DNA of 64,000 bases from Plumapathes pennacea (taxonomy: Eukaryota > Cnidaria > Anthozoa > Antipatharia > Myriopathidae). The position numbers were made by a program, and so were the translations under genes. Shown here piece by piece: positions 17,493-55,923 of this stretch. A model generated the notes under the pieces. The model did no database searches and had not been told where the DNA came from. It saw only the letters and a program-made list of their open reading frames with translations. Position 1 is the first letter of the stretch. Every line of letters starts with the position of its first letter. The stretch is from the NCBI GenBank assembly GCA_964036295.1, contig OZ038467.1, positions 18,015,670-18,079,669 of the forward strand, read 5' to 3'.

Positions 17493-19712
17493 TTAGTACT
17501 GCGGTTGAAAAACTTGGATGCAGTGATTTTGAAAATCACAAACAAACACTCGCCCATCTGCTATTACTGTTATACCTAAAGGTGCATTAAACTGCCTTTG
17601 AACAGATCCTCGTGATCCAAATGAGGTCACAAATTTGCCTTTTAATGTAAAAACCTGCACACAGTGCTTGCCCTCATCACAAACTAACAACAAATCATTT
17701 ACATCAACTGCAAGACCTGCTGGAGTGTTCAGCTGGCCCTTGCCAATGTCATAAAGATAAGTGCCTTGTGAATCAAACACTCTCACCACTTGCAGCCTAC
17801 TACTGACAAAGTACTTTCCATCATGGAATATGGCAAATGGATCACCAGTAATTTGATTTTTTGCAAACTGCAGGAGCAGCCTTCCTTCAGGTGAGAACAC
17901 AAACACTTTCTTGGCTGTTTTGTCACAGACCACAACATTGTTATCATTTGTAACAGAGACACCACAGACACGCTTCAATGCTCCTTCACCAAACTTGCTG
18001 ATCCACTGACCAGCAGGGCTAAACACTTGGATTCTACAGTTGTTTAAATCACAAACAACAATGTTATCAATCTTATTATAAGCCACTCCTGTAGGAGACT
18101 GGAACTGTCCATTTCCTTTTCCTTGTGATCCAAACTTCCTCACGAACTGGCCTGCATTACTGAAAATCTGCACTCTGTGATTAGAAAGGTCTGAAACTGC
18201 CAGCTCTCCAGTACTGCTCACTGATATATCAACAGGGTGGTCGAACTGCCCATTACCTGAGCCATATGACCCAAATGAGCTCAGATGTTTGTAGCTGTGT
18301 GGTATTCTCTTTCTTACATTGACATCTACATGACAATTCCTGGGAGACTGGCCTTGCACTTTCACAGTCAAGTGATGAACTCCTTTAGTCTTGGGGGTAA
18401 AACTGACTGAGTAACTTCCATCTTCTCTATCTTGAACTTCATTTTCCACAACATCTCCAGCAGGAGATAAAATTTGCACAGTCACTTCCTCTGTTGTTGA
18501 ATGACAGACGTTTTCTTCATTGTCTCGAGTGACAACAGTAAACTGGGCACAGTCATTGATAAAAATTGGCAGTTTTTCAAATCCCTGAATCTGTGTCTTT
18601 TCTGGGTCAACAACCATTTGTGCCACGAGAACTCGACCCAGTGTTACTTGCTCTACACTTTGATAAATATCTTCATTTGGTATGTACTTCACATGCTGGC
18701 TTTTGACAGGCTGTAGTTCTTCAAGAGTCTTCAGGAGTTCTTCAGATCGGTTCCCCACAGACGGCTCAGCTCGCAGGATTTCTCCACTAATTTCTCGTTT
18801 CAGGACACTGTCAAAGAAATCAGTCACACTACTCAGCTGGCCTAAACGAAGTTCCAACTTCTCTTTCCGACCTTCAAACTCTCGTCCTTGATCTTCACGA
18901 ATCGTAGCAAGTTTTGTCATCATATCTCTCTCGTGTTGCTTGGCCAGGTCAATAAATCTTTGCGTGTTGCGTCGGGCGGAAAGTTCAGCGGCAGCGATTT
19001 GCTCTTCAAGTTTTCTGTACGTCTTCTGGTCTTTTTTTAGTCTTGCTTCGCAAATGCGAACTCCGGCTTGAACTTTCTTCATGCTTTCTTCTAAGCGTAG
19101 CTTCGCTTGATCGGCGGCATCGTCGAGATGAACGAGTTCGTGGTCCTTGTGGGTAATTATGGCGCACTTCTGACAAATACACCGTTGACAAGTTTCGCAG
19201 AAAAACTCTAAAACCTCAGAGGTGTGGCGCGGCTCTTCACAAAGCTGAGGCCTGCCGAGGATCTCCTGAATGTCAGCGTCTTGAACCGCTGATAATGCAG
19301 TCAGACGATGACCTTTCCAGATCTTTAGTCGTGAATGTAGTTCTCGACACTCGTCGCAATTGAAACACTCGCAGTTAAAACAAAACGCCGTGGCTGAAGA
19401 CTTCTTGTCGCAGTTGTTGCACAGCACTTGGTGACCTTCATTTTGAGTTGATACGATGTCCCGGAGACGATTCAGATGAAACGATGAAGGAAAGGTGTTG
19501 AAGTTGCCTCCCTCCGGTAAAGCGATTTCCGTTCTACAATCCGGACACGCGATGGGTTCTTGGTTTACACGTTTTTCTGCCAGCCGGTTGAGACAGTGAA
19601 GACAGAACGTGTGAAGACACGGTAGAATTCTTGGATCGGTGTAGATCTCCAGACAAACAGAACACTCTATCTCTTTCGTCAGTCTCTCCATTAAACTTGG
19701 AGACGACGCCAT
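17493..19712 (-). CDS. TRIM-NHL E3 ubiquitin ligase, copy T1 (intact)
   Basis: A single-exon frame of 739 residues from MASSPSLMERL. Order: RING (C-x2-C...CLHTFCLHC...CPDC, about 17-59), B-box 1 (about 98-138), B-box 2 (about 158-191), coiled coil (about 197-330), filamin/Ig-like domain (about 368-468), then six NHL repeats (about 477-739, CDFQNHCIQVFQ at the end). This is the architecture of TRIM2/TRIM3/TRIM71 (LIN-41); such proteins are RING E3 ligases whose NHL propeller binds RNA or protein. An upstream in-frame ATG at 19754 would add 14 residues, but the MASS start is the one shared by most copies. NHL loop residues differ strongly from those of the other copies, while RING and coiled coil barely change. 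Confidence 0.92.
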   Translation of the reverse strand: MASSPSLMERLTKEIECSVCLEIYTDPRILPCLHTFCLHCLNRLAEKRVNQEPIACPDCRTEIALPEGGNFNTFPSSFHLNRLRDIVSTQNEGHQVLCNNCDKKSSATAFCFNCECFNCDECRELHSRLKIWKGHRLTALSAVQDADIQEILGRPQLCEEPRHTSEVLEFFCETCQRCICQKCAIITHKDHELVHLDDAADQAKLRLEESMKKVQAGVRICEARLKKDQKTYRKLEEQIAAAELSARRNTQRFIDLAKQHERDMMTKLATIREDQGREFEGRKEKLELRLGQLSSVTDFFDSVLKREISGEILRAEPSVGNRSEELLKTLEELQPVKSQHVKYIPNEDIYQSVEQVTLGRVLVAQMVVDPEKTQIQGFEKLPIFINDCAQFTVVTRDNEENVCHSTTEEVTVQILSPAGDVVENEVQDREDGSYSVSFTPKTKGVHHLTVKVQGQSPRNCHVDVNVRKRIPHSYKHLSSFGSYGSGNGQFDHPVDISVSSTGELAVSDLSNHRVQIFSNAGQFVRKFGSQGKGNGQFQSPTGVAYNKIDNIVVCDLNNCRIQVFSPAGQWISKFGEGALKRVCGVSVTNDNNVVVCDKTAKKVFVFSPEGRLLLQFAKNQITGDPFAIFHDGKYFVSSRLQVVRVFDSQGTYLYDIGKGQLNTPAGLAVDVNDLLLVCDEGKHCVQVFTLKGKFVTSFGSRGSVQRQFNAPLGITVIADGRVFVCDFQNHCIQVFQPQY

Positions 19713-19938
19713 GTTGGACAGAAATAGTAAACGAATTCCTAATGGGGCGAGCAAGAGCGCGTATAGCGTTTCCGCCTACAAAGACTCTTTCAATTTTTTT
19801 CCGCGCGAAAATTGGGGTGAGCGCAAAAATTACACCGAGGAGGGGTGGGGGGAGGGACGGGAGTGGGAGAGAATTTCTTGTACTCCTCCCACCTCTCCCC
19901 TCGCCCCAATTTTTGCGCTTGCCTCATTTTTCGCGCGG
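19713..19938 (-). promoter_or_regulatory. T1 upstream region with GC-rich inverted repeat
   Basis: CCGCGCGAAAATTGGGG plus GAGCGCAAAAATT at about 19800-19832 is mirrored by AATTTTTGCGCTTGCC and TTTTTCGCGCGG near 19907-19938, with a purine-rich then pyrimidine-rich centre. The same block precedes T4, and variants precede T2, T6 and the insertion upstream of T3, so it is either a shared promoter or a MITE next to it. Confidence 0.45.
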
Positions 19939-20177
19939 GGGGTTTTTCAAAGCACGATTAGGCTAATCCTGGATTAGGTTTAAACTTTCTTGTTATTTAT
20001 AAGCCTGAAAACGTGAAAGTTTCGTCCACAACGACTTTCTTGATAACGTTTTAAGCTGGAACAAGCAGCTCTTTAATCCATCTTCGAACAAAACTCTGCA
20101 ATTTATTGGGAGAGAGTTCGAGAGAAATAATTTCGTTAATCCTGGATTAGCTTAATCGACTTTCGAAAAATCGGGCC
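19939..20177. mobile_element. GGCCCGG-type MITE, left tip lost
   Basis: Starts GGTTTTTCAAAGCACGATT fused to the GC-rich T1 upstream block and ends ATCGGGCC followed by CTG (20178-20180). Same family as 3164-3386. Confidence 0.65.
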
Positions 20178-20216
20178 CTGGACATTCTTCTGAGCAATGC
20201 GCATTTATCTTGACAG

Positions 20217-20363
20217 AAAACATTTTGTGCTCCCGTTTACACGACATCTCAGCGCCGTAACGCGATGGGTGTTGGCTTGGTGTTTGAAGCGGACCTGGCT
20301 ACACATGAACATATCTCTCACTGGGTGCTACAGGGCGTGTGTCTCACCCTTAACTCCGACTGA
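20217..20363 (+). pseudogene. copy A of the dynein terminal exon
   Basis: A 147-bp duplicate of dynein exon 13 with the acceptor (ATTTATCTTGACAG) and the TGA preserved. The 48-codon frame is intact ([20 protein letters not shown] onward, ending CLTLNSD) and differs from the parent by N to K, R to C and Q to H changes. No other dynein exon adjoins it. Without an upstream donor partner it is a stranded exon, unless spliced as an alternative last exon over about 7 kb. Confidence 0.85.
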
Positions 20364-23493: not shown

Positions 23494-25696
23494 TCAGTAC
23501 TGCGGTTGAAAAACTTGGATGCGGTGATTTACACAATCACAAACAAACACTCGCCCATCTGCTATCACTGTTATACCTAAAGATAAATTGAATTGCCCTC
23601 GAACATATCCACTTGATCCAAATGAGGTCACAAATTTGCCTTCTAATGTAAAAACCTGCACACAGTTCTTTTTCTGATCACAAACTAACAGCAAATCATT
23701 TGCATCAACTGCAAGACCTACTGGAGTGTTCAGCTGTCCCTTGCCAATGTCATAAAGATGAACGCCTTGTGAGTCAAACACTCTCACCACTTGCAGCTTA
23801 GTACTGACAAAGTACTTTCCATCATGGAATATGGAATATGGGTAATCACCGGAAAGTACATTTTCTGTAAACTCCAAGAGCAGCCTTCCTTCAGGTGAGA
23901 ACACAAACACTTTCTTGGCTGTTTTGTCACAAACCACAACATTGTTATCATTTGTTACAGAGACACCCCAGGGACTCTTCAATACTCCTTCACCAAACTT
24001 GCTGATCCATTGACCAGCTGGGCTGAACACTTGGACTCTGGAGTTGTTTAAATCAGCAACAACAATGTTATCAATCTTATTATAAGCTACTCCTGTAGGA
24101 GCCTGGAACTGTCCATTTCCTTTTCCTTGTGATCCAAACTTCCTCATGAACTGGCCCACATTACTGAAAATCTGCACTCTGTGATTAGAATAGTCTGAAA
24201 CTGCCACTTCTCCAGTACTGTTCACTGATATATCAACAGGGTTGTAGAACTCCCCATTACCTGAGCCAGATGACCCGAATGAGCTCAAATGTTTGTAGCT
24301 GTGTGGTATTCTCCTTGTTACATTGACATCTACATGACAATTCCCAGGAGACTGGCCTTGCACTTTCACAGTCACATGATGAACTCCTTCAGTCTTGGGA
24401 GTAAAACTGACTGAGTAATTTCCGTCTTCTCTGTCTTGGACTTCATTTTCCACATCATCTCCAGCAGGAGACAAAATTTGCACAGTCACTTCCTTTGTTT
24501 TTGAATGACAGATGCTTCCTTTACTGTCTCGGGTGACAACAGTAAACTGGACACAGTCATTGATAAAAATTGGCTGTTTTTCAAATCCCTGAATCTGTGT
24601 CTTTTCTGGGTCAGCCACTTGTGCCACGAGAACTCGACCCAGTGTTACTTGCTCTACACTGTGATAAATATCTTCATTTGGCATGTACTTCACATGCTGC
24701 TTTTTGACAGGCTGTAGTTCTTCAAGAGTCTTCAGGAGTTCTTCAGATCGGTTCCCCACAGACGGCTCAGCTCGCAGGATTTCTCCACTCATTTCTCGTT
24801 TTAAGACACTGTCCAAAAAGTCAGTCACACTGCACAGCTGTCCTAAACGAAGTTCCAACTTCTCTTTCCGACTTTCAAACTCTCGTCCTTGATCTTCACG
24901 AATCGTAGCCAGTTTTGTCATCACTTCTCTCTCGTGTTGCTTGGCCAGGTCAATAAATCTCTGCGTGTTGCGCTGGGCGGAAAGTTCAGCTGCAGCGATT
25001 TGTTCTTCAAGTCCTCTATGCGCATTCTGGTCTTTCTTTAGTGTTTCTTCGCAAATGCGAACTCCGGCTTGAACTTTCTTCTTGCTTTCTTCTAAGCGTA
25101 GCTTCGCTTGATCGGCAGCATCGTCAACATGAACGAGCTCGTGGTACTTGTGGGTAATAATGGCGCACTTCTGACAAATACACCGTTGACAAGTTTCGCA
25201 GAAAAACTCTAAAACCTCAGTGGTGTGGCGCGGTTCTTCACAAAGCTGAGGTCTGCCGAGGATCTCCTGAACGTCGGTGTCTTCAACCTGTGATAAAGCA
25301 GTCAGACGATGACCTTTCCAGATCTTGATTCGGGAATGTAATTCTCGACACTCGTCACAAATGAAACACTCGCAGTTGAAACAAAACGTGGTAGCTGTAG
25401 ACTTGTCGCAGTTGTTGCACAGCACTTGGTGACCTTCATCTTGAGTTGACACGATGTCCCGAAGACGATTCAGATAAAACGATGAAGGAAAAGTGTTAAA
25501 GTTGCCTCCGTCCGGTAGAGCAATCCGGACACGCGATGGGTTCTTGGTTTACACGTTTTTCTGCCAGCCGGTTGAGACAGTGCAGACAAAACGTGTGAAG
25601 ACACGGTAGAGTTTTTGGATCGGTGTAGATCTCCAGACAAACAGAACACTCTATCTCTTTCGTCAGTCTCTCCATTAAACTTTGAGACGACGCCAT
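23494..25696 (-). pseudogene. TRIM-NHL copy T2, frameshifted in the RING
   Basis: The start MASSQSLMERL at 25696 opens a RING that reads to CPDC, then a 14-base deletion at about 25525 (present in all other copies) shifts the frame to an early stop. The remaining 652 codons run open from Met at 25452 to 23494 and encode B-box 1, B-box 2, coiled coil, filamin and NHL repeats without a stop. It is either a recent pseudogene or, if internally initiated, a RING-less TRIM-NHL that could bind targets without ubiquitin-ligase activity. NHL loops are distinct (EFYNP, SDYSN, CDCVN). Confidence 0.85.
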
Positions 25697-27370: not shown

Positions 27371-27371
27371 T

Positions 27372-27374
<3 letters not shown>

Positions 27375-31016: not shown

Positions 31017-33236
31017 TCAGTACTGCGGTTGAAAAACTTGGATGCGGTGATTTTCACAATCACAAATAAACACTCGCCCATCTGCTATCACTGTTATACC
31101 TAAAGGTAACTTAAACTGCCCTTGAACAGATCCATATGATCCAAATGAGGTCACAAATTTGCCTTCTAATGTAAAAACCTGCACACAGTTCTTTTTCTGA
31201 TCACAAACTAACAGCAAATCATTTGCATCAACTGCAAGACCTCCTGGAGTGTTCAGCTGTCCCTTGCCAATGTCATAAAGATGAGCACCTTGTGAGTCAA
31301 ACACTCTCACCACTTGCAGCTTAGTACTGACAAAGTACTTTCCATCATGGAATATGGCGTATGAAAAATCACCAGAGAGTTCATTTTCTGCAAACTGCAA
31401 GAGCAGCCTTCCTTCAGGTGAGAACACAAACACTTTCTTGGCTGTTTTGTCACAGACCACAACATTGTTATCATTTGTTACAGAGACACCCCAGGGACTC
31501 TTCAATACTCCTTCACCAAACTTGCTGATCCTCTGACCAGCTGGGCTGAACACTTGGATTCTAGAGTTTCTTAACTCACCAACAACAATGTTATCAGTCT
31601 TATTATAAGCCACTCCTGTGGGACACTGGGACTGTCCATTTCCTTCTCCTTGTGCTCCAAGCTTCCTCATGAACTGGCCTGCATTACTAAACATTTGCAC
31701 TCTGTGATTAAAAAGGTCTGAAACTGCCACTTCTCCAGTACTGCTCACTGATATATCAACAGGGGTATTGAACTGCCCATTAACTGAGCCATGTGACCCA
31801 AATGAGCTAAGATGTTTGTAGCTGTGTGGTATTCTCCTTGTTACATCGACATCTACATGACAATTTCCAGGAGACTGCCCTTGCACTTTCACAGTCACGT
31901 GATGAACTCCTTCAGTCTTGGGAGTAAAACTGACTGAGTAACTTCCATCTTCTTTGTGTTGAACTTCATTTTCCACATCATCTCCAGCAGGAGAAAAAAT
32001 TTGTACAGTCATTTTCTCTGTTTTTGAATGACAGACGTTTCCTTCGTTGTCTCGGGTGACAACACTAAACTGGGCACAGTCATTGATGAAAATTGGCTGT
32101 TTTTCAAATCCCTGAATCTGTGTCTTTTCTGGGTCAGCCACGTGTGCCACGAGAACTTGACCTAGTGTTACTTGCTCTACACTGTGATAAATATCTTCAT
32201 TTGGTATGTACTTCACATGCTGCTTTTTGACAGGCTGTAGTTCTTCAAGAGTCTTCAGGAGTTCTTCAGATCGGTTCCCCACAGACGGCTCAGCTCGCAG
32301 GATTTCTCCACTGATTTCTCGTTTCAGGACACTGTCTAAGAAGTCAGTCACACTGCACAGCTGGCCTAAACGAAGTTCCAACTTCTCTTTCCGACCTTCA
32401 AACTCTCGTCCTTGGTGTTCACGAATCGTAGCTAATTTTGTCATCACTTCTCTCTCGTGTTGCTTGGCCAGGTCAACAAATCTCTGCGTGTTGCGTTGGG
32501 CAGAAAGTTCAGCGGCAGCGATTTGTTCTTCAAGTTCTCTGTGTGTCCTCTGGTCTTTCTTTAGTCTTTCTTCGCAAATGCGAACTCCGGCTTGAACTTT
32601 CTTCTTGCTTTCTTCTAAGCGTAGCTTCGCTTGATCGGCAGCATCGTCGACATGAACGAGCTCGTGGTTCTTGTGGGTAATAATGGCGCACTTCTGACAA
32701 ATACACCGTTGACAAGTTTCGCAGAAAAACTCTAAAACCTCAGTGGTGTGGCGCGGTTCTTCACAAAGCTGAGGCCTGCCGAGGATCTCCTGAACGTCCC
32801 TGTCTTCGACCTCTGATAATGCAGTCAGACGATGGCCTTTCCAGCTCTTGATTCGGGAATGTAATTCTCGACACTCGTCGCAATTGAAACACTCGCAGTT
32901 AAAACAAAACGCCGTGGCTGAAGACTTCTGGTCGCAGTTGTTGCACAGCACTTGGTGACCTTCATTTTGAGTTGACACGATGTCCCGGAGACGATTTAGA
33001 TAAAACGAGGAAGGAAAAATGTTGAAGTTGCCTCCCTCCGGTAAAGGGATTTCCGTTCTACAATCCGGACACGCGATGGGTTCTTGGTTTACACGTTTTT
33101 CTGCCAGCCGGTTGAGACAGTGCAGACAAAACGTGTGAAGACACGGTAGAGTTTTTGGATCGGTGTAGATCTCCAGACAAACAGAACACTCTATCTCTTT
33201 CGTCAGTCTCTCCATTAAACTTTGAGACGACGCCAT
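31017..33236 (-). CDS. TRIM-NHL E3 ubiquitin ligase, copy T3 (intact)
   Basis: A 739-residue single-exon protein, MASSQSLMERL start. RING zinc ligands are C17, C20, C32, H34, C37, C40, C56 and C59. B-box 1 follows at about 98-138 and B-box 2 at about 158-191, with coiled coil 197-330, filamin 368-468 and NHL repeats 477-739. Only 10 bases separate the ATG from the edge of a 7.1-kb nested transposon insertion (33247-40391), so the original 5' flank now lies beyond 40392. Unless a promoter inside the element drives it, expression may be altered. NHL loop residues (QFNTP, SDLFN, VGELRN, CDCEN) differ from the sister copies. Confidence 0.92.
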   Translation of the reverse strand: MASSQSLMERLTKEIECSVCLEIYTDPKTLPCLHTFCLHCLNRLAEKRVNQEPIACPDCRTEIPLPEGGNFNIFPSSFYLNRLRDIVSTQNEGHQVLCNNCDQKSSATAFCFNCECFNCDECRELHSRIKSWKGHRLTALSEVEDRDVQEILGRPQLCEEPRHTTEVLEFFCETCQRCICQKCAIITHKNHELVHVDDAADQAKLRLEESKKKVQAGVRICEERLKKDQRTHRELEEQIAAAELSAQRNTQRFVDLAKQHEREVMTKLATIREHQGREFEGRKEKLELRLGQLCSVTDFLDSVLKREISGEILRAEPSVGNRSEELLKTLEELQPVKKQHVKYIPNEDIYHSVEQVTLGQVLVAHVADPEKTQIQGFEKQPIFINDCAQFSVVTRDNEGNVCHSKTEKMTVQIFSPAGDDVENEVQHKEDGSYSVSFTPKTEGVHHVTVKVQGQSPGNCHVDVDVTRRIPHSYKHLSSFGSHGSVNGQFNTPVDISVSSTGEVAVSDLFNHRVQMFSNAGQFMRKLGAQGEGNGQSQCPTGVAYNKTDNIVVGELRNSRIQVFSPAGQRISKFGEGVLKSPWGVSVTNDNNVVVCDKTAKKVFVFSPEGRLLLQFAENELSGDFSYAIFHDGKYFVSTKLQVVRVFDSQGAHLYDIGKGQLNTPGGLAVDANDLLLVCDQKKNCVQVFTLEGKFVTSFGSYGSVQGQFKLPLGITVIADGRVFICDCENHRIQVFQPQY

Positions 33237-34800: not shown

Positions 34801-37800
34801 ATGCCTTTCCAGAGGATAAGCGACACCATCGGGTATGTTGCCGATACAGCAACTGCAGAGAAAATTTTACATGAACACGAAGTGGAAACAACCACACGAT
34901 ATGTCATGTATTATAACAATGGACTTGGCAAAGGTAAGCGGGTAGCTTTTTGGCAGGGAAAGCACGTTTGCTATAACATGGGAATGAAACAAGGAAAAGT
35001 CCACTTCTTGAAATTGAAATATTTTCTTTGAAATTGGATCCAAATTGGCTGTAAGGACTTGTAGAATGTTTGGAGCTCCAACTGGTCTAGTTTGTTTCAA
35101 AAAAAAAATAAAAATAAAAAATTGCCTAGATGACCATTTGGACATGAAAATCAGCCGGCCAAATAGTTTCAGCCGAATGTATCAAACAATTATTGCATCT
35201 GAATGGAAAAGGTAATAATTAACTAATATCGACCGCTGTCCGTGTCTCTCACAAATTGTTTTCTGTTATAGACAACGTGGCATTGAAAGGGAAAAAAGTG
35301 TTCTTTGAAGACCCACAGTCAGCCTTGTCGCAGCCTCGTATAACGTATGATGGGACGCCGTTCGTTATCCTGGGAAAACAAATTTATGATTGTCAGCAGG
35401 GCGTTGACCGCCACGCGGCTGATAAACTGCGCAACAAAGCAAAAGAGGTGCGTCTTTACTTTCTTCTACGTTGTGGTATAAGATGATTGATTGTCGGTGT
35501 GCGTTGTTATATATTTGTTATATTTTTTTGCGGTGTCAAATAATACAATACAGTATGTATCCTTAAATTATTAATTTTTCAAAAGTTGAATTATTCCCAT
35601 TGCACTGTAGGGTGGCGACCATTCGTATGGCGATAGACGGTGCAAAGCGGCCCATCAAACAACGAAGAAGTTTGGTTGTACGGCGCAAGTCATCATGCGG
35701 GAGATAATCCGTTTCCCAGCCTTCAAAGTAAGTCTCAAGTACCGACACTGCAAAAAAACAAAATGCAACATCTAGCGATAATAGCATTTCATACTCATTT
35801 CCGGATAACAATAAATACACCTAAAAGAAGGAAAACCGCGTCTAAGAAATTGCGACAAGCTCTTGAGCGAGGCAGTGCGGAAGAAGGAGAGAGGCGCGTA
35901 TACTTACAGCTACCGCTTGAAACGGACCACCACGATCACGCCACTGGAGAGGTACGTAAGTTTGCTCAACACTAGTGTATTCGAAGTATCATCTTTCACG
36001 GCTAAGTTATTCCTATTTTCTTTCTGTGTCTCTCTGTCCGGGCTGTCTGCCTTGCCTCCCTTTCGTCTGTCTTTTAGTCGTCCATTAATCGTGCGACTGT
36101 CGACAAATCTTCAACTTGATCAACATTTTTTTCCTAGAATGCTGGCCTTCTACAGAGGATGGACGTGCGTTTGAGGAATAAAATGAAGGAGTTAGTTGAA
36201 GATGGCGTTCGCGGAGTTAACGAAATGCGTCGTCACCTGCGCCACTACGTTTCGAAAACCCTCTTCAAAGGAGAAGCTTTACCACCGCGAACAAACAGAA
36301 GGTTCTTCCCTCGAAAAGTCGACGTTCGTAATGGCATATACGAATCTATTGTGAAGCACAGATGGTCTAAGGTCGACCAGGAGAATTTGGTGAAAAAAAT
36401 GGAAACGTGGCAGCGGGAAAACCCCCGTGACAACATAGTTTTCAACCAGTATGCCTCGGACCAGGAATCACCGCATCACGATGACAGCAATGACGGCGGT
36501 GAAGACGGTGACGAAGAGTACGTGGAACCCACTCAGGGTAACGGCTTGCTATTTGTGCACCAAACAGAGTGGCAGAGCAGACTGCTAAAGCGGTACGGGA
36601 ACAAACTCAGTATGCTTGACGCAACCTACCGCACCACGAAATATGCATTGCCTCTGTTCTTTCTGGTAGTCTAGCAGGACTGGGAGGTCTGGCAAAAACC
36701 TGATCTTCGCCATGCAAGAAACTGGTTCCATTCAATGTGGCTGAAAGTGCACAAGGTGAATTCAGTTGCCCTGAATAACCAATCACGTATTTTTGTTTAC
36801 AGTTTAGCACAATAGCGTGTCCTAAGTGTTTTTGCAGTATTAGTGGTTCACTTTTAAAGTGAATCTTTATGCTGTTTGTACCCAGTAATTACTCTTTTTG
36901 CATAAGGCCTATGGTGTATTTATGCTTCACACAAGTTTATTTTGTTTCAAGTATAACTGAATTTACTCACTTCTCTTTTCTCTACATTTCAGCGATGGGT
37001 CTGGGCTTTCAAAAAAGATCGCCTGTTAGCAGCCGTAGGTACAAACAATGGAGTTGAGCGCCAGAACAAGTCATTCAAATATGAATACCTTGAAGGGAAC
37101 AGAAGTTCAAACCTGAGTACCATGCTGACAGTTTTGGTCGAACAATTTCTACCAGACAAGTACACAAAGTGAGCAGTTTTATCGTTTACATGTTGAAAAT
37201 GTCTGCCTGTTTATTTTACTTATTGCCATGGAAACCAAATTTTTAAAGAATACTGTATACTGCACAATGAGATATTTCAATGACATTATTTTATTCCACT
37301 TGACACGAAGAAATGCATCCAGGTTATGAATTTTGTTGCATCACATCTTCTTGTAAAATTTATGGTTGTTAGTAAGTGCTTGTAAAAAGACTGTATTGGC
37401 AGGTCATGGTTTCTGTCCAGTGATAGGTTTTTGAGAGAATGCTATTGTGTTGTTACTAACAGGCCATGTAAATACTGTTGCAGATATGTTAATGATAACA
37501 CCAGACTGTCTAGCAACTATAGACGATACGATGCAACGGTGCCAGAGTATCTGCACAATCGCCCACGGCAGTTTGTCAAGCACTGCTTAGAAAAGATAGC
37601 CCTTGCTGAGACCATCCCATCTCACCAAGTGGAGGAGACTGCCAGCGGCCAATTTTGTGTCCGCAGTCAGGATGGTTCAAAGGAGTATGGAGTATCACTG
37701 CATGAAAGTGACCCTTCACCGTTCTGCTCTTGTAAGGACTGGGAAAGGCACCACCTGCCCTGCAAGCATATGTTTGCCACCTTTCGCCACCATCCAACAT

Positions 37801-39380
37801 ATGGATTTCACTCCTTTAACTCGCTTTACATAAATTCCCCTCATCTTACACTGGATGAAGAGGTGATTTTCCCAGTTAAAAATGATTATCCAATTGATGC
37901 CTCCTTTCCAGATCAGCCTAGTGCACAAAGAAACAAATCAACTGGCCATATTCCCTCTTCAAAACGGTTTAGTAAGACCTCAGTAGCAAAGTGCAGGGAC
38001 CTTTTGGCTCAACTAAACTCACTCACCTATCTTGTAAATGATCCATCTGCTGTGGAGGAATTGCAAGAAACCTTGGAGGGATGTCTCCAGTCGATGGGAA
38101 CAGCAGCACCAAAAGCTGAAAATGGCATCATTCTTGAGCAAGGTGCCCCTCAAACAGCATGTGCACGCCTGCAGCCAGCTGCACCCACCAACACACCTAT
38201 GGCAATACCAGTACCTTTGGCTCGTGGAAAGGGAAGATTGACTGGTAGAGTAGGGCAAGCAGCCACTAATTTAAAATGTGGATGGCATGTTGATCCACTC
38301 CAGCCAACTGCCAAGCAATCAAGAAAGCGGGGGCATGAAGAACTGGAAACTGAAGTGGTAAATGAAGATCTCGAGGGTGACACTCCATTCTGTGAAGGAT
38401 CAACAGTCTCTTGTTCTGAGATGGAAGACACAAGCAGTGCCCCTTCTGATACTTCCAGTGCAAGTGACTCACCTGCAGCAACTGAAGAGAATTCATTTGT
38501 GTATCCATGTAGATCAGCTCCTGAAGGAGCCAGTAGTTCATCTTCATCTGCAGATGATATTGAAATAATATCTGTAGAGCATCATCCAGATTGCAAGAGG
38601 CCACGGAGAAGCAGTTACAAGCTGCATAAGTCAGATGAGAAAATTTTGAGTACACCCGTGGAACTGACTGATGCTATTATTAGTGTTAGTCAGAACATTC
38701 TTCATGACATGTTCCCTCAAGTGGAAGGCCTCGAAGACACCACCCTGGGCCCTCTTCTCGACTTTTCTGTACATGGTGGGGAATTTGTCCAAGTTCTTCA
38801 CACTGGTGGACACCACTGGGTCACAGTCAGCAACATTGGCTGCCAGAGGGGGGAAGTAAACTATTTTGACAGTTTATCTAATGGCAAGCCCTCCTCTTTT
38901 GTGCAGAAGCAAGTAGCATCCATGCTTCAGGAGAAGAGCCCCCAAATCAAGCTGGTGGTCCAACCAGTGCAGCAACAAAGTAACTCTGTTGATTGTGGTC
39001 TTTTTGCAATTGCATTTATGACATCTCTTCTGCACAGTGAAAACCCTTGTGATGTACTGTATGATGAGTTCTCACTGAGGCCTCATCTGAGAGATTCCCT
39101 GATCTCTGGCACCCTACAACCCTTTCCAAAGGCTGGAGGAAGGTGTGGCAATAAAGTCCATAGCATTCACCGCCGATGCAGGAAGAAAATTGTTGCTGTG
39201 GACCTGATGTGCTTGTGCCGTCTGCCATGGGATAGGAAAGACAGGGCGGACCCACTCATGTGGTGTGCCCAGTGTGACCTCTGTTCAGAATGGTACCACA
39301 AGAAATGCATGCCATCCATCCCTGACAGCGTCTTCCATGGGAGTACCTTTTGGACTTGCAGCCAATGTAATCAATCTTAG
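34801..39380 (+). pseudogene. MULE transposase-related gene: SWIM, Ulp1-type protease and PHD finger
   Basis: Likely exons, by GT/AG and frame: 34801-34933, 35272-35447, 35611-35727, about 35847-35951, 36138-36755, 36993-37168 and 37421-39380. Early exons give a MULE-type N-terminus (DRRCKAAHQTTKKFGCTAQV). MLDATYRTTKYALPLFFLVV is the first-Asp region of the DDE domain and GTNNGVERQNKSFKYEYLEG the Glu region. Between them, at 36672-36674, are an in-frame TAG and a join to DWEVWQKPDLRHARNW, so the middle of the core with the second Asp is missing. The last exon holds a SWIM zinc finger (CSCKDWERHHLPCKH), a C48/Ulp1 protease (His of HHW, Asp of YFDS, Gln and Cys of NSVDCG) and a C-terminal PHD finger (CxC...CAQCDLC...HKKC...CSQC). 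The transposase is probably dead; the 653-codon last exon is fully open. Confidence 0.75.
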
Positions 39381-40604: not shown

Positions 40605-41907
40605 ATTCCCAGGAGACTGCCCTTGCACTTTCACAGTCACGTGATGAACTCCTTCAGTCTTGGGAGTAAAACTGACTGAGTAACTTCCATCTTCTTTGTG
40701 TTGAACTTCATTTTCCACATCATCTCCAGCAGGAGAAAAAATTTGTACAGTCACTTTCTCTGTTTTTAAATTTTTCAAATCCCTGAATCTGTGTCTTTTC
40801 TGGGTCAGCCACTTGTGCCACGAGAACTCGACCCAGTGTTACTTGCTCTACACTGTGATAAATATCTTCATTTGGCATGTACTTCACATGCTGCTTTTTG
40901 ACAGGCTGTAGTTCTTCAAGAGTCTTCAGGAGTTCTTCAGATCGGTTCCCCACAGACGGCTCAGCTCGCAGGATTTCTCCACTGATTTCTCGTTTCAAGA
41001 CACTGTCCAAAAAGTCAGTCACACTACTCAGCTGGCCTAAACGAAGTTCCAACTTCTCTTTCCGACCTTCAAACTCTCGTCCTTGGTCTTCACGAATCGT
41101 AGCTAATTTTGTCATCACTTCTTTCTCGTGTTGCTTGGCCAGGTCAATAAATCTCTGCGTGATGCGTTGGGCAGAAAGTTCAGCGGCAGCGATTTGTTCT
41201 TCAAGTTCTCTAAGCGTCTTCTGGTCTTTCTTTAATCTTTCTTCGCAAATGCGAACTCCGGCTTGAACTTTCTTCTTGCTTTCTTTTAAGCGTAGCTTCG
41301 CTTGATCGGCGGCATCGTCGACATGAACGAGTTCGTGGTTCTTGTGGGTAATAATGGCGCACTTCTGACAAATACACCGTTGACAAGTTTCGCAGAAAAA
41401 CTCCAAAACCTCAGTGGTGTGGCGCGGCTCTTCACAAAGCTGAGGCCTGCCGAGGATCTCCTGAACGTCCCTGTCTTCGACCTCTGATAATGCAGTCAGA
41501 CGATGGCCTTTCCAGATCTTGATTCGGGAATGTAATTCTCGACACTCGTCGCAAATAAAACACTCGCAGTTAAAACAAAACGCCGTGGCTGAAGACTTCT
41601 GGTCGCAGTTGTTGCACAGCACTTGGTGACCTTCATTTTGAGTTGACACGATGTCCCGGAGACGATTCAGATAAAACGATGAAGGAAAAGTGTTGAAGTT
41701 GCCTCCCTCCGGTAGAGCGATTTCCGTTCTACAATCCGGACACGCGATGGGTTCTTGGTTTACACGTTTTTCTGCCAGCCGGTTGAGACAGTGCAGACAA
41801 AACGTGTGAAGACACGGTAGAGTTTTTGGATCGGTGTAGATCTCCAGACAAACAGAACACTCTATCTCTTTCGTCAGTCTCTCCATTAAACTTTGAGACG
41901 ACGCCAT
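40605..41907 (-). pseudogene. TRIM-NHL copy T4, truncated
   Basis: Starts MASSQSLMERL at 41907; RING, both B-boxes and coiled coil are intact. The frame leaves the family inside the filamin domain (after QIQGFEKF) because about 85 bases are missing near 40765, between two CTGTTTTT motifs, and stops at 40720. The filamin remainder (40605-40740) is then cut and joined directly to the T3 upstream region; all NHL repeats are gone. It could make a 395-residue RBCC-only protein. An upstream ATG at 41949 is in frame. Confidence 0.85.
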
Positions 41908-45792: not shown

Positions 45793-48008
45793 TCAGTACT
45801 GTGGTTGAAAAACGTGGACGCGGTGATTGTAACAATCACAGACAAACACTCGCCCATCTGCTATCACTGTTATACCTAAAGGTATATCAAACCGCCCTTG
45901 AGCAGATCCATGTGATCCAAATGACGTCAAAAATCTGCCTTCTAATGTAAAAACCTGCACACAGTGCTTGCCCCTATCACAAACTAACAGCAAATCATTT
46001 GCATCAACTGCAAGACCTGCTGGAGTTTTTAGCTGTCCCTTGCCAATGTCATAAAGATGAGCACCCTGTACATCAAACACTCTCACCACTTGTAGCTTAG
46101 TACTGACAAAGTACTTTCCATCACGGAATATGGCATACAGGTCTTCACCAGAGAGTTGATTTTCTGCAAACTGCAAGAGCAGCCTTCCTTCAGGTGAGAA
46201 CACAAACACTTTCTTGGCTGTGTTGTCACAGACCACAACATTGTTATCATTTGTTACAGAGACACCACAGGGACTCTTCAATACTCCTTCACCAAACTTG
46301 CTGATCCACTGACCACCTGGGCTAAACACTTGGATTCTACAGTTCCCGATTTCACCAACAACAATGTTATCAGTCTTATTATAAGCCACTCCTGTGGGAT
46401 ACTGGAACTGTCCATTTCCTACTCCTTCTGTTCCAAACTTCCTTACGAACTGGCCTGCATTCCTGAAAATCTGCACTCTCTGATTAGATTGGTCTGAAAC
46501 TGCCAGCTCTCCAGTACTGCTCACTGATATATCAACAGGGTACCAGAACTGTCCATTACCTGAGCCTTGTAACCCAAACGAGCCCAGATGTTTGTAGCTG
46601 TGTGGTATTCTCTTTGTTATATTGACATCTACATGACAATTCCCAGGAGACTGGCCTTGCACTTTCACAGTCACGCAACTCCTGGGGTCTTGGGAGTAAA
46701 ACTGACTGAGTAACTTCCATCTTCTCTGTGTTGAACTTCATTTTCCACATCATCTCCAGCAGGAGACAAAATTTGCACAGTCACTTCCTCTGTTGTTGAA
46801 TGACAGATGCTTCCTTTACTGTCTCGGGTGACAACAGTAAACTGGACACAGTCATTGATAAAAATTGGCTGTTTTTCAAATCCCTGAATCTGTGTCTTTT
46901 CTGGGTCAGCCACTTGTGCCACGAGAACTCGACCCAGTGTTAATTGCTCTACACTGTGATAAATATCTTCATTTGGCATGTACTTCACACACTGGCTTTT
47001 GACAGGCTGTAGTTCTTCAAGAGTCTTCAGGAGTTCTTCAGATCGGTTCCCCACAGACGGCTCAGCTCGCAGGATTTCTCCACTAATTTCTCGTTTCAGG
47101 ACACTGTCCAAGAAATCAGTCACACTACTCAGCTGGCCTAAACGAAGTTCCAACTTCTCTTTCCGACCTTCAAACTCTCGTCCCTGGTCTTCTCGAATTG
47201 TAGCCAGTTTTGTCATCATTTCTCTCTCGTGTTGCTTGGCCAGGTCAATAAATCTTTGCGTGTTGCGTTGGGCGGAAAGTTCAGCGGCAGCGATTTGTTC
47301 TTCAAGTCCTCTATGCGCTTTCTGGTCTTTCTTTAGTCTTTCTTCGCAAATGCGAACTCCGGCTTGAACTTTCTTCTTGCTTTCTTCTAAGCTTAGCTTC
47401 GCTTGATCGGCAGCATCGTCAACATGAACGAGCTCGTGGTTCTTGTGGGTAATAATGGCGCACTTCTGACAAATACACCGTTGACAAGTTTCGCAGAAAA
47501 ACTCCAAAACCTCAGTGGTGTGGCGCGGCTGTTCACAAAGCTGAGGCCTGCCGAGGATCTCCTGAACGTCCCTGTCTTCGACCTCTGATAATGCAGTCAG
47601 ACGATGGCCTTTCCAGCTCTTGATTCGGGAATGTAATTCTCGACACTCGTCGCAAATGAAACACTCGCAGTTAAAACAAAACGCCGTGGCTGAAGACTTC
47701 TGGTCGCAGTTGTTGCACAGCACTTGGTGACCTTCATTTTGAGTTGACACGATGTCCCGGAGACGATTCAGATAAAACGATGAAGGAAAAGTGTTAAAGT
47801 TGCCTCCCTCCGGTAGAGCGATTTCCGTTCTACAATCCGGACACGCGATGGGTTCTTGGTTTACACGTTTTTCTGCAAGCCGGTTGAGACAGTGAAGACA
47901 GAACGTGTGAAGACACGGTAAAGTTCTTGGATCGGTGTAGATCTCCAGACAAACAGAACACTCTATCTCTTTCGTCAGTCTCTCCATTAAACTTGGAGAC
48001 GACGCCAT
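45793..48008 (-). pseudogene. TRIM-NHL copy T5, frameshifted in the filamin domain
   Basis: Starts MASSPSLMERL at 48008 (another ATG directly before, 48011). RING, B-boxes, coiled coil and most of the filamin domain are open to about 46675, where four bases are missing compared with T3 (after CACAGTCACG on the plus strand). The frame then stops, and the NHL part continues open in another frame (293 codons, 45793-46674). It has strongly divergent NHL loops (QFWYP, SDQSNQ, VGEIGN, CDCYN). The translated product would be an RBCC-filamin fragment. Confidence 0.85.
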
Positions 48009-48011
48009 CAT

Positions 48012-48457
48012 GTTGGACAGAAAGAGTAAACAAATTCCTGATGCAAGCGTTTCCGCCTACAAAGACTTTTACTCGCGGGGGCCTGGGGCCCAACGCGAGC
48101 TTAAAAAACGCAAATTTTTATTTTTATTTATTTTTTCCTTTTTGAATAATCGGTCGAGAATCAGCACACGGTGATTGGTTCAGATTATCACGTGATATGC
48201 AATGACGTAATTGACTTCGTTAAACAACTCGAGTGTGGCTATGAATTGCTCGGTACTTGTGTGTAAAAGTTAACTGCATTTAATCCAAACTCAACACCGT
48301 TTGGGTTTGTGCCGAACACGCACTGATAAACTGGATGTTAGGGAACGATTTTGGCTTGCTTTCTTTAGTTCACCGCGGAAGCTTTGAGAATAGCCGTAAA
48401 CAGATGTTTGATGGATACCGCTGGGGGATTGCAAATATCTCTGTAGCCGCTAAATAT
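48012..48457. other. T5 upstream and unique spacer
   Basis: Not shared with the other TRIM upstream regions beyond the first 60 bases. No coding sequence recognised. Confidence 0.5.
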
Positions 48458-50341: not shown

Positions 50342-50380
50342 CTGGACATTCTTGTGAGCAATGCGCATTTATCTTGACAG

Positions 50381-50684: not shown

Positions 50685-50717
<33 letters not shown>

Positions 50718-50739
50718 CTTTTTTTCTTTTGCCCTCTAA

Positions 50740-51576: not shown

Positions 51577-53679
51577 TAAATATGAAGTGTACTTTCCACT
51601 CTCAATAGCTTGTAGGCTTGCATTACTTCCAGTACAATTTCCGAGTTTATTTATCTACTTCTAGTGTTTCTAAGAAACTCTTACAAATGTAAAAAATTCC
51701 AACGAAATAAAAGTATATTTCGATTTGTATTAAACGGGTCTTTTGTGGATTCAAGCTCCTTCTGTGTTGTCAGCGAAAATCGTGTCAAGTCCACACTCAC
51801 TTGGACATGACCGTGAGGGGATTGGCGAGACTTACGGGTATGACCGCTGGTACATACTTGGATGCGTGCGCCTCGCTGAAAAGCCCGCGCTAAATTCGAC
51901 TCAAGAAGCCGGGACGTTAATATCAAAGGTAAGTAAAAAAACAGTTTCGTAATGTTATAGGCTTCTTTGGAAATGCTTAGCAGAGGGAATCAAGTACACA
52001 CTTCCCGGGAAAACTTGCGAACCCAACAAAGGCGAAAGTGAGAACATTTAAAATCAAACTTGGGGGGTTACCTTTCGTTTACTTGTTTGGATTCTCCGTC
52101 TGGAAAGTAAGAAGCTTCAAAGCAAAATATAGAGGCTAACCAGTTAAGAGGTTCTTGATAGATAGCAACAGTATACTGTGTGTGGTGTAAGTGGCTGGGG
52201 AGGACCTTGTTGGTGTTGGGAAAGCAAATTCCCCCATTGGATGGAAGAAAACACAGTTTGACTGCTTGTCATTCCCCGGGGGGAGGGGAGGGGGTACTCC
52301 CATATATAAGCCATAAAGGTATGTGCCGCCCTAAAGGGTATCATTTTAAGCATTTTAGTCTGAAATAGGGTATCAATTTTGAGCCTTTGGTCTGGAATAG
52401 GGTTGAAGATTTTAATTGTTCTTAAGGTTAAAAATTGCAGATTTTGGTCTGAAAAACGGTCGAAAATTGCACATTGTGGTTCAAAATTTTGTCCCCCCCC
52501 CCTCCCCCCCCCCCCCCCTTGGGGTCGTCACCAAGAACTGCTGCTGATCTATGAAGGCCTCTCCAAACGAAAAATCACCAGTTGAGCTGCTTTGTTTAAT
52601 GAATTTGACACCAGGTTGTTTTACGGTAAACAAGCAATAATTTGGACATGCTTTTTTAGGTAAACCATAAATAGCAATGCTAAACTAAGATTACCAGAAA
52701 ATGTTTTGTAAAAGTAAACTTGAAATTCTTGGGTCAACAGCTTGATAAGAAACACTGCCCCCACAAAACCATGATGGCTTCCATAGTTCAAATAACAGCA
52801 CTCTCTACTTCCTACCCAAAACACTCTAGCCATACAAACTAAATATCACCAAGTCAAATCCAAGTTTGAAGCTGCATGATGCAACCCAAATGATTGTGGG
52901 GCCACCTGGTTTTGTTTGCTGGGTCAGAATTATCTAAATAAAAAGCTGCATTCAACTGGAAACTAAAATCCCAAAATTCTTGTGCTAACTTTGGTAAGCT
53001 TATATAACAGCATGAGGTGAGCTATCCTCTGTAAGCTTCAGTGAATAAACCCATTCAACTTCAATGATGTCCTGTGAGCAATGGGGAGAAACCACTGCTT
53101 ACAGGGTAGCAATGAAGATATAACTAAGCATATGTACAAGTCTCACTGCAATTTAGTTATAATCACACATTTCACAAAGCCCTGGTTAAAAGGACTCACA
53201 AGAACAAGAACGTCATTCATTTTCAGCTGATGTGATCCTAGGGAGTAGGGGGTTGGGGTAAGTGTGCCACCCAACTCTGAAAACCTCAAGCTGTGCAGAC
53301 CAAAAAGAATGATTTTTCAACTCTATTTCAGACCAAAATGTGAAATTTGTGACCCTAATTCAGACCCTAATTCAGAGGGGGTATTCCCATATATAAGCCA
53401 TATAGGTATGTGCCACCCCAAAGGGTATAATTTTCAGCAATTTAGTCTGAAATAGCGTAGGTCGAAAATCACAGATTTTGGTCTGAAAAATAGTCGAAAA
53501 TTGAGTATTTTGATCTGAAACAGGGTAAAGGTTTTCAATCCCGGGCAGCACACTCCCACCCAAAATTTTGAGGAGCACCCCACCCCTCCCACCTCAGAAT
53601 TCAGACCAAAATACCAAACTTTTTTGGTGTCCTCTATTGGCCACTATAGAGAGGGCCCCTTTAGGGTTAAACAAAAACT
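51577..53679. other. dynein 3' flank copy and type II spacer
   Basis: Non-coding. Parallel to 21436-23493: dynein 3'-flank copy, GGGGTACTCC repeats at 52277-52520 and 53233-53590, stem-loop at 53071-53106. Confidence 0.6.
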
Positions 53680-55923
53680 TCAGTACTGCGGTTGAAAAAC
53701 TTGGATGCGGTGATTTAGACAATCACAAACAAACACTCGCCCATCTGCTATCACTGTTATACCTAAAGGTAAATTGAACTGCCCTTGAACAGATCCACTT
53801 GATCCAAATGAGGTCACAAATTTGCCTTCTAATGTAAAAACCTGCACACAGTGCTTGCCCTGATCACAAACTAACAGCAAATCACTTGCATCAACTGCAA
53901 GACCTGCTGGAGTGTTCAGCTGTCCCTTGCCAATGTCATAAAGATGAGCACCTTGTGAGTCAAACACTCTCACCACTTGCAGCTTAGTACTGACAAAGTA
54001 CTTTCCATCATGGAATATGGCATATGGGTAATCCCTGGAAAGTACATTTTCTGTAAACTCCAAGAGCAGCCTTCCTTCAGGTGAGAACACAAACACTTTG
54101 TTGGCTGTGTTGTCACAGACCACAACATTGTTATCATTTGTTACAAAGACACTCCAGGGACTCTTCAATACTCCTTCACCAAACTTGCTGATCCACTGAC
54201 CAGCTGGACTGAACACTTGGATTCTGGAGTTCTTTAAATCACCAACAACAATGTTATCAGTCTTATTATAAGCCACTCCTGTGGGAAACTGGAACTGTCC
54301 ATTTCCTTTTCCTTGTGATCCAAACTTCCTCATGAACTGGCCTGTATTACTGAAAATCTGCACTCTGTGATTCCAAGTGTCTGAAACTGCCACTTCTCCA
54401 GTACTGTTCACTGATATATCAACAGGGGTATTGAACTGCCCATTACCTGAGCCAAATGACCCGAATGAGCTCAAATGTTTGTAGTTGTGTGCTATTCTCC
54501 TTGTTACATTGACATCTACATGACAATTCCTGGGAGACTGGCCTTGCACTTTCACAGTCACATGATGAACTCCTTCAGTCTTGGGAGTAAAACTGACTGA
54601 GTAATTTCCGTCTTCTCTGTCTTGGACTTCATTTTCCACATCATCTCCAGTAGGAGATAGAATTTGCACAGTCACTTTCTCTGTTTTTGAATGACAGACG
54701 ATTCCTTCGTTGTCTCGGGTGACAACAGTAAATTGGGCACAGTCATTGATAAAAATTGGCAGTTTTTCAAATCCCTGAATCTGTGTCTTTTCTGGGTCAG
54801 CCACTTGTGCCACGAGAACTTGACCCAGTGTTACTTGCTCTACACTGTGATAAATATCTTCATTTGGCATGTACTTCACATGCTGCTTTTTGACAGGCTG
54901 TAGTTCTTCAAGAGTCTTCAGGAGTTCTTCAGATCGGTTCCCCACAGACGGCTCAGCTCGCAGGATTTCTCCACTAATTTCTCGTTTTAAGACACTGTCC
55001 AAAAAGTCAGTCACACTGCTTAGCTGGCCTAAACGAAGTTCCAGCTTCTCTTTCCGACCTTCAGATGCTCGTCCTTGGTCTTCACGAATCGTAGCCAGTT
55101 TTGTCATCACTTCTCTCTCGTGTTGCTTGGCCAGGTCAATAAATCTCTGCGTGTTGCGTTGGGCGGAAAGTTCAGCGGCAGCGATTTGTTCTTCGAGTTC
55201 TCTATGCGCATTCTGGTCTTTCTTTAGTCTTTCTTCGCAAATGAGAACTCCGGCTTGAACTTTCTTCTTGCTTTCTTTTAAGCGTAGCTTCGCTTGATCG
55301 GCAGCATCGTCGACATGAACGAGCTCGTGGTTCTTGTGGGTAATAATGGCGCACTTCTGACAAATACACCGTTGACAAGTTTCGCAGAAAAACTCTAAAA
55401 CCTCAGTGGTGTGGCGCGGTTCTTCACAAAGCTGAGGTCTGCCGAGGATCTCCTGAACGTCGGTGTCTTCAACCTGTGATAAAGCAGTCAGACGATGACC
55501 TTTCCAGATCTTGATTCGGGAATGTAATTCTCGACACTCGTCACAAATGAAACACTCGCAGTTGAAACAAAACGTGGTAGCTGTAGACTTGTCGCAGTTG
55601 TTGCACAGCACTTGGTGACCTTCATCTTGAGTTGACACGATGTCCCGGAGACGATTCAGATAAAACGATGAAGGAAAAGTGTTGAAGTTGCCTCCCTCCT
55701 CTAGAGCGATTTCCGTTCTACAATCCGGACACGCGATGGGTTCTTGGTTTACACGTTTTTCTGCCAGCCGGTTGAGACAGTGCAGACAAAACGTGTGAAG
55801 ACACGGTAGAGTTTTTGGATCGGTGTAGATCTCCAGACAAACAGAACACTCTATCTCTTTCGTCAGTCTCTCCATTAAACTTTGAGACGACGCCAGTTGG
55901 ACAGAGAGAGTAAACAATTCCAA
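53680..55923 (-). CDS. TRIM-NHL E3 ubiquitin ligase, copy T6 (altered start)
   Basis: A 747-residue open frame with complete RING, B-box 1, B-box 2, coiled coil, filamin and NHL repeats. One base is missing in the usual start (other copies read CCATGTTGG on the plus strand, this one CCAGTTGG), so the family Met becomes Leu. The same deletion brings an upstream ATG at 55923 into frame, giving the N-terminus MELFTLSVQLASSQSL. The product would be normal length apart from 8 extra residues. NHL loops: QFNTP, SDTWN, VGDLKN, CDCLN. Confidence 0.88.
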   Translation of the reverse strand: MELFTLSVQLASSQSLMERLTKEIECSVCLEIYTDPKTLPCLHTFCLHCLNRLAEKRVNQEPIACPDCRTEIALEEGGNFNTFPSSFYLNRLRDIVSTQDEGHQVLCNNCDKSTATTFCFNCECFICDECRELHSRIKIWKGHRLTALSQVEDTDVQEILGRPQLCEEPRHTTEVLEFFCETCQRCICQKCAIITHKNHELVHVDDAADQAKLRLKESKKKVQAGVLICEERLKKDQNAHRELEEQIAAAELSAQRNTQRFIDLAKQHEREVMTKLATIREDQGRASEGRKEKLELRLGQLSSVTDFLDSVLKREISGEILRAEPSVGNRSEELLKTLEELQPVKKQHVKYMPNEDIYHSVEQVTLGQVLVAQVADPEKTQIQGFEKLPIFINDCAQFTVVTRDNEGIVCHSKTEKVTVQILSPTGDDVENEVQDREDGNYSVSFTPKTEGVHHVTVKVQGQSPRNCHVDVNVTRRIAHNYKHLSSFGSFGSGNGQFNTPVDISVNSTGEVAVSDTWNHRVQIFSNTGQFMRKFGSQGKGNGQFQFPTGVAYNKTDNIVVGDLKNSRIQVFSPAGQWISKFGEGVLKSPWSVFVTNDNNVVVCDNTANKVFVFSPEGRLLLEFTENVLSRDYPYAIFHDGKYFVSTKLQVVRVFDSQGAHLYDIGKGQLNTPAGLAVDASDLLLVCDQGKHCVQVFTLEGKFVTSFGSSGSVQGQFNLPLGITVIADGRVFVCDCLNHRIQVFQPQY

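Follow-up and report, generated by a model that had tools for sequence, protein, structure and literature searches.

A tandem TRIM-NHL gene array in Plumapathes pennacea with an excess of amino-acid change on one face of the NHL propeller

The window, that is, the whole stretch of 64,000 nucleotides analyzed here, lies on contig OZ038467.1 of the antipatharian Plumapathes pennacea (C6:18,015,670-18,079,669), in a genome of 290 Mb and 24 contigs. Its minus strand carries six TRIM-NHL gene copies, designated T1 to T6. At an E-value cut-off of 0.001, Pfam domains of the array copies are RING, B-box, filamin and NHL repeats. The RING models PF13445 and PF00097 exceed the cut-off in T1, T3, T4, T5 and T6, the RING of T2 being broken, and the B-box model PF00643 does so in all six copies. 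TIF1-beta chains align with residues 20-292 of the T3 frame in a phmmer comparison; the coiled-coil region named below is a putative one. With a filamin repeat and a six-bladed NHL propeller, the genes have the domain order of the TRIM-NHL class (class VII/subfamily C). The copies are as follows.

17496..19712, minus strand: T1, intact TRIM-NHL gene in one open frame (RING, B-box, filamin, NHL repeats)
23497..25696, minus strand: T2, TRIM-NHL copy; a 14-nt deletion in the RING breaks the frame, NHL frame open
31020..33236, minus strand: T3, intact TRIM-NHL gene and reference for residue numbering
40605..41907, minus strand: T4, truncated copy; RING, B-box and coiled-coil region kept, internal deletion in filamin, NHL absent
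45796..48011, minus strand: T5, TRIM-NHL copy split into two frames (46674-48056 and 45796-46737) by a 4-nt frameshift that lies between filamin and NHL
53683..55896, minus strand: T6, TRIM-NHL copy with an open frame; a 1-nt deletion removes the usual ATG

Only T1 and T3 retain the full frame from the usual start. In T5 the frameshift places the NHL domain out of frame with the ligase body, and in T6 the next Met is found shortly before the RING.

A preliminary description of the window had proposed that, among T1, T2, T3, T5 and T6, replacements cluster in loops of the NHL propeller above a fixed ubiquitin-ligase body, forming a recognition surface under diversification. The residues on which this proposal was built are present in the sequence. 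In the five paralogs, in that order, the blade 1 pair preceding Pro reads DH, YN, NT, WY and NT, the pair after SD reads LS, YS, LF, QS and TW, the second-blade residue before Pro is S, A, C, Y and F, the last blade carries F-Q, C-V, C-E, C-Y and C-L, and the variable residue of the FGSxG motif is Y, S, H, Q and F. The last-blade codons CAA, GTA, GAA, TAC and CTA are located at 17529-17531, 23530-23532, 31053-31055, 45829-45831 and 53716-53718, respectively, and AATCAC follows all five. The clustering exceeds chance: amino-acid-variable codons number 47 of 84 in the upper-face loops versus 34 of 176 in the rest of the 260-codon NHL domain (Fisher p = 5e-9).

Nonsynonymous to synonymous rate ratios (omega) were estimated with a purpose-written codon maximum-likelihood program (GY94 type, F3x4). 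The best of the 15 topologies compared was identical for the RING, B-box and coiled-coil part (RBCC) and for the NHL domain. When five partitions were fitted to the window, omega was 0.387 for RBCC, 0.733 for filamin, 2.73 for the upper loops, 0.53 for the lower loops and 0.44 for the strands. The upper-loop value was tested against 1 (twice the log-likelihood difference, 2dlnL, 46.3) and ranged from 2.54 to 2.90 across all 15 topologies. For the window NHL domain, comparison of model M8 with M7 gave a 2dlnL of 71.3, and the nine sites with an M8 posterior above 0.9 (482, 490, 491, 508, 538, 556, 681, 701 and 728 in T3 numbering) all lie in upper-face loops. The excess is therefore focused on one propeller face, as the proposal had foreseen, while strands and lower-face loops are constrained and do not share it. 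The fixed body was borne out in part: its sequence is conserved (RBCC omega 0.39), but T2, T4 and T5 are broken and T6 is without its start.

Silent third-position variation does not differ significantly between upper loops (6/37) and the rest (16/140; p = 0.41). When double and triple nucleotide changes were permitted, upper-loop omega in the window was 2.22 (p = 1e-6). When the silent rate was left free over all upper loops, it fell to 1.8 (p = 0.012), and restriction to the contact positions described below restored the signal.

These positions were taken from zebrafish LIN41, in which, according to the available part of PMC5908797, 14 named residues touch an RNA hairpin on the upper surface. 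All 14 fall on five blade-relative positions, P-2 (one contact), P-1 (four), P+1 (two), D+1 (three) and D+2 (four), where P is the Pro opening strand a and D the acidic residue closing strand b. The T3 equivalents, five per blade over six blades, make up a ring of 30 codons. Positions equivalent to the LIN41 contacts exist in the paralogs and are the variable ones; the contact residues themselves are not conserved. On T3, the ring is laid out as follows.

31020..31799, minus strand: six-bladed NHL propeller, residues 480-739
31758..31769, minus strand: blade 1, P-2 to P+1, residues 490-493
31710..31715, minus strand: blade 1, D+1/D+2, residues 508-509
31617..31628, minus strand: blade 2, P-2 to P+1, residues 537-540
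31569..31574, minus strand: blade 2, D+1/D+2, residues 555-556
31491..31502, minus strand: blade 3, P-2 to P+1, residues 579-582
31443..31448, minus strand: blade 3, D+1/D+2, residues 597-598
31362..31373, minus strand: blade 4, P-2 to P+1 equivalent (the Pro is missing in T3 blade 4), residues 622-625
31320..31325, minus strand: blade 4, D+1/D+2 equivalent, residues 638-639
31242..31253, minus strand: blade 5, P-2 to P+1, residues 662-665
31194..31199, minus strand: blade 5, D+1/D+2, residues 680-681
31101..31112, minus strand: blade 6, P-2 to P+1, residues 709-712
31053..31058, minus strand: blade 6, D+1/D+2, residues 727-728, holding the variable last-blade codon given above

In the window, omega reaches 5.13 over the 30 contact codons (2dlnL 75), compared with 1.53 for the other upper-loop codons and 0.44 for the remaining NHL codons. 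Null simulations that set contact omega to 1 (120 data sets) gave a maximum statistic of 5.3, against 74.3 observed, and six of them passed 2.71, where about 5% were expected. The intact pair T1-T3 alone gives a contact omega of 4.88 (p = 3e-7), and other subsets give 4.12 (T1-T3-T6), 7.83 (T2-T6) and 5.51 (T1-T5). As a control, a pair of aspartyl/asparaginyl-hydroxylase genes copied alongside T2 and T6 has an omega of 0.60, versus 7.83 for the T2-T6 ring.

The array belongs to a larger family. Using T3 and one member of cluster E (see below) as queries, at least 73 matching places were found on seven contigs, counting fragments and body-only copies; places were merged at a gap of 1.5 kb, so that adjacent loci may be fused. 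With the window as cluster A, the clusters tested were B (C6:5.5 Mb, 4 copies), C (C7:12.4 Mb, 4), D (C5, 6), E (C6:19.1-19.5 Mb, 18), F2 (C7:1.0-2.7 Mb, 6) and F3 (4). For cluster E, 18 of the 22 merged places were used, the remainder being broken or partial, and 17 of these 18 members keep the full frame. Group F comprises 14 loci, six in F2 and four in F3, with L057 common to both and L046, L052, L029, L045 and L048 in neither; all 14 entered the 51-paralog set used below for composition. L008 is represented by its 3' open frame alone, and the full-frame census of cluster D is unreliable, as the extracted stretches cut at least two genes (L058 and L059). Loci L014, L017, L020 (the same place as L067), L025, L058-L066 and L068-L072 lay outside the selection tests.

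Over the 30 equivalent codons, contact omega was 3.28 in B, 4.97 in C, 3.25 in D, 6.34 in E (2dlnL 420 for the 18 copies), 4.58 in F2 and 4.91 in F3, with every p below 2e-9 under a common silent rate. Whole upper-loop omega was 1.72 in B, 3.62 in C, 1.98 in E (1.61 in a nine-member subset), 1.42 in F2 and 1.52 in F3. A scan of offsets from -6 to +8 around Pro and Asp peaked at P-2, P-1, P+1, D+1 and D+2, and most other offsets remained below 1. Off the ring, omega exceeded 1 at D+4 in six of the seven runs (1.2-2.6), at P+0 and P-4 in A and B, at P-5 in A, at P-3 in F3, at D-1 in E (1.1) and at many offsets in C. By hand count, the ring holds 7/9 of the M8 sites above 0.9 in A, 3/6 in B, 4/9 in C, 15/20 in D, 21/24 in E, 12/13 in F2 and 10/15 in F3 (leaving 2, 3, 5, 5, 3, 1 and 5 off the ring, respectively), with a chance expectation of about 1 in 9 (30/260 codons). 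Members of cluster E are far less alike in the ring (amino-acid identity 0.37) than in the NHL framework (0.91) or RBCC (0.88). A seventh cluster, L068-L072 (C8:16.17-16.20 Mb), shows 81-97% pairwise identity, and its first blades differ by eye at P-1 and D+1/D+2.

The contact signal was re-examined under less restrictive models. When multinucleotide changes were permitted and the silent rate kept common, it held in all six clusters run. When both were left free, four clusters clearly kept a contact omega greater than 1 (A, p = 1e-5; D, p = 0.005; E, p = 2e-15; F2, p = 5e-7). In tree-free pairwise comparisons, dN (the nonsynonymous rate) at contact codons exceeded whole-gene dS (the silent rate) in 203 of 205 pairs; framework dN exceeded dS in one of 205. 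Relaxed constraint, local mutation bias or multinucleotide mutation as the sole cause is insufficient in A, D, E and F2.

Evidence of recombination was obtained as well. In pairwise homoplasy index (PHI) tests, none of 500 permutations reached the statistic in A, D and E, and 5 of 500 did so in F2. Within cluster E, 11 of 153 pairs have an identical five-letter word in one blade and at least three differences out of five positions in another; L030 and L034, for instance, have blades 4-6 in common and depart from each other in blades 1-3, by three, three and two residues out of five. These alignments indicate that the paralogs exchange segments. The 18 rings of cluster E include 17 distinct ones, with a mean difference of 19 of 30 positions.

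Several observations weigh against a functional, selected ring confined to the LIN41 contact positions. Three of the six window genes (T2, T4 and T5) are broken. The contact set was chosen after the first site lists had been seen and hence not blindly, although the source structure is independent. Window sites 482 and 701 (FGSxG) are selected outside this set, and omega for the upper-loop codons that are not contacts is likewise greater than 1 in three clusters (A, 1.53; B, 1.12; C, 2.79). In cluster D, the upper loops as a whole are not significantly above 1 (1.10, p = 0.17). In the fit that frees multinucleotide changes together with the silent rate, the signal does not reach significance in B (p = 0.24) and is weak in C (p = 0.027). 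Relaxation, mutation bias or multinucleotide mutation as sole cause remains viable for B and is countered only weakly for C. In the same fit, the silent rate of A and F2 sits at its lower bound, which makes their omegas of 76 and 87 unusable as values. Finally, because the PHI tests detect recombination, single-tree site models are approximate.

Across 51 paralogs, Lys plus Arg (K+R) make up 13.5% of the ring (9.0% of the framework) and Asp plus Glu (D+E) 9.0%; aromatic residues or His account for 17.9% of the ring and 12.2% of the framework, and Trp for 5.2% and 0.2%, respectively. Ring net charge varies from -3 to +5 across 43 paralogs, and ring K+R from 0 to 24%. In LIN41, 8 of the 14 contacts are Lys or Arg, and the Brat surface is mixed hydrophobic, as far as the accessible part of PMC5908797 describes them. 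The analogy with Brat and LIN-41 drawn in the preliminary description thus applies to the contact positions, which match, and not clearly to the ligand, since the ring is only mildly basic. Its make-up, with Trp and a net charge of varying sign, leans toward protein or mixed ligands over an RNA backbone; given the mild basic excess and the mixed hydrophobic surface of Brat, an RNA ligand is possible.

Taken together, the data support the earlier interpretation of a diversifying, putative recognition surface on a conserved, predicted ligase body. The window holds a tandem cluster from a large germline family of TRIM-NHL genes, and we consider it probable that these encode receptor-ligases that differ in the targets they recognize. 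Each whole copy combines a conserved RING/B-box/coiled-coil/filamin body with a six-bladed propeller. Some five residues in every blade, equivalent to the RNA contacts of LIN41, make up a ring on its upper face. This ring would serve as the target-binding surface, with a different target for each paralog, and the RING end would tag the bound target or its surroundings with ubiquitin. As selection favours new rings, in the manner of immune receptors, the targets themselves would be expected to change, and pathogen molecules located within the cell are the most likely candidates. The defence or anti-transposon role suggested in the preliminary description is thus a putative one. A more far-reaching version may be put forward tentatively, as a proposal that we hold to be somewhat more doubtful than credible: an animal without adaptive immunity might keep a germline library of dozens of receptor-ligases, each with a paratope-like ring of about 30 residues over six blades fused to a ubiquitin ligase, its variety arising through blade exchange between paralogs and through point selection that acts on five positions in each blade. 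A bound foreign intracellular molecule could then be ubiquitinated directly, with no separate antibody.

Alternative explanations were weighed against this reading. The paralogs could have kept the RNA binding of TRIM71 and Brat and have been selected for different motifs, whether viral, transposon-derived or in the animal's own mRNA. This is unlikely in view of the ring composition, with K+R as low as 0 in some rings, D+E at 9.0% and a net charge of either sign; moreover, the available part of PMC5908797 describes TRIM2 and TRIM3 NHL surfaces as being without either known RNA site. Allorecognition, with each ring variant matched to a polymorphic self protein in the way known from fungal heterokaryon incompatibility, would fit the high paralog diversity (17 of 18 distinct rings in E) and the very similar site geometry of the HET-D/HET-E WD40 repeats (PMC1805685, as far as available). 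At least 73 matching loci on seven contigs, however, are unlike one polymorphic locus, and we regard this explanation as improbable.

Two further explanations dispense with selection for binding. Locally raised mutation, through targeted hypermutation or donor-templated conversion, would be consistent with the recombination detected and with relative silent rates at contact codons that exceed 1 in three clusters under single-step models (B, 2.5; C, 2.3; D, 1.5). Against this, the same rate stays below 1 in E (0.93), A (0.85) and F2 (0.68), silent third positions in the window upper loops are not significantly faster, and a codon or two away from the selected positions omega has mostly fallen back, which makes this explanation highly improbable. 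Relaxed constraint on decaying pseudogenes is less credible still. It would account for the broken T2, T4 and T5, for the missing ATG of T6 and for the further broken or partial places in and around the clusters, but it predicts a ring omega of about 1. The observed ring omega is above 1 while the framework of the same genes is below 1, and the signal is present in the intact T1-T3 pair and in the E set, with its 17 of 18 full frames.

Other features of the window and the genome were recorded alongside the array. The hydroxylase paralogs (aspartyl/asparaginyl beta-hydroxylase, PF05118; 27434-28480 and 57709-58683, minus strand) were duplicated with the T2 and T6 blocks and differ at 27 of 780 nt and at 16 residues. 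Mobile-element-like frames on the plus strand, at 36138-36671 (ALS2CR8-type domain) and 37386-39377 (SWIM zinc finger and Ulp1/C48 protease), lie just past the point at which T4 has lost its NHL domain. The broken copies L067 (C7:12.41 Mb) and T5 both shift frame close to where filamin meets NHL (about residue 475 in L067 and 445 in T5); coincidence, a weak spot and assembly error are all candidates. Pieces recurring between the TRIM copies (20.2-21.8, 42.4-44.1 and 50.4-52.0 kb) occur again outside the array at 13305-14044 (plus strand), as if the array had once reached further. A fragment at 14328-14879 (plus strand) is reverse-transcriptase-like by eye and has no Pfam match at an E-value of 0.001, and dynein heavy chain domain exons at 5921-6415 and 9525-10160 (plus strand) flank the array. 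At L073 on contig C24, COX1 is split around a frame that resembles a homing endonuclease by eye, with COX3 upstream and adjoining; this arrangement, a feature of hexacorals and of sea anemones in particular, suggests a hexacoral mitochondrion. A search for the GFP family had no match, and neither did its control. A T3 scan of viral contigs returned one locus, L001 (34%), on a phage-like contig, and a scan of genome contigs one Geothermobacter locus, L002 (28%); neither scan returned an animal relative. Two large proteins that combine NHL-type repeats with long Ser-rich regions are encoded at L001:4119-8451, and neighbouring frames resemble phage tail proteins by eye.

NHL-class TRIMs are known mostly for conserved roles in development or in neurons. 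In nematodes, ubiquitin-ligase adapters of the MATH-BTB and F-box types, the folds and ligase type of which differ from those of TRIM-NHL, evolve adaptively, with numerous recent copies and a substrate-binding domain that diversifies. The predicted proteins described here are TRIM-NHL by architecture and depart from the known members in behaviour. Rapid evolution of the NHL surface between subfamilies is already noted in PMC5908797, where TRIM71/LIN-41, Brat, Mei-P26 and TRIM2/3 are compared across different animals; here, at least 73 loci lie in one genome and ring omega exceeds 1 among recent paralogs. Selection among recent NHL-class paralogs inside one genome is what the present codon alignments add. 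No description of positive selection on NHL domains in such an expansion was found among the titles and abstract openings listed from the open-licence PubMed Central literature, so that an earlier report is possible, and the main text of PMC10236652, on coral tandem duplications, does not mention NHL, ubiquitin or B-box and contains 'trim' solely within 'trimmed'. TRIM diversification in animals is known for B30.2 domains, and the closest animal case is that of the fish B30.2 TRIMs (ftr/finTRIM, btr, trim35/hltr), which share lineage-specific expansion and positive selection on the C-terminal recognition domain, as far as the accessible part of PMC3137616 reports. Their recognition domain is B30.2, whereas here the NHL class itself is expanded, and B30.2 (PRY-SPRY) has no Pfam match in the array copies.

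The closest design is found in the fungal NWD proteins HET-D and HET-E of Podospora, which likewise join a beta-propeller to a conserved effector end and exchange repeats among paralogs. According to the part of PMC1805685 available, four codons per WD40 repeat are selected in these proteins, all on the top surface and arranged as two pairs, codons 7 and 9 belonging to the d-a loop and codons 25 and 27 to the b-c turn; hypervariable selected positions in the d-a and b-c propeller loops are found here as well. Both pairs in HET-D/HET-E flank a conserved residue, whereas here P-1/P+1 alone does so, D+1 and D+2 being adjacent. The WD40 repeats are nearly identical within a gene, whereas the blades here differ inside one protein (same source). 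The fungal proteins carry WD40 rather than NHL repeats and NACHT/HET rather than RING/B-box. As neither NACHT nor WD40 has a Pfam match in the array copies (E-value 0.001), the present family works like HET-D/HET-E but is not a member of that group. The ring yields a short, directly testable list of positions, and the family bears on how invertebrates construct intracellular recognition repertoires. An NHL-class expansion with selection on a ligand ring would give TRIM immunity a second recognition scaffold, and would suggest that animals and fungi separately reached one design, a conserved effector joined to a propeller with varied d-a and b-c loops.

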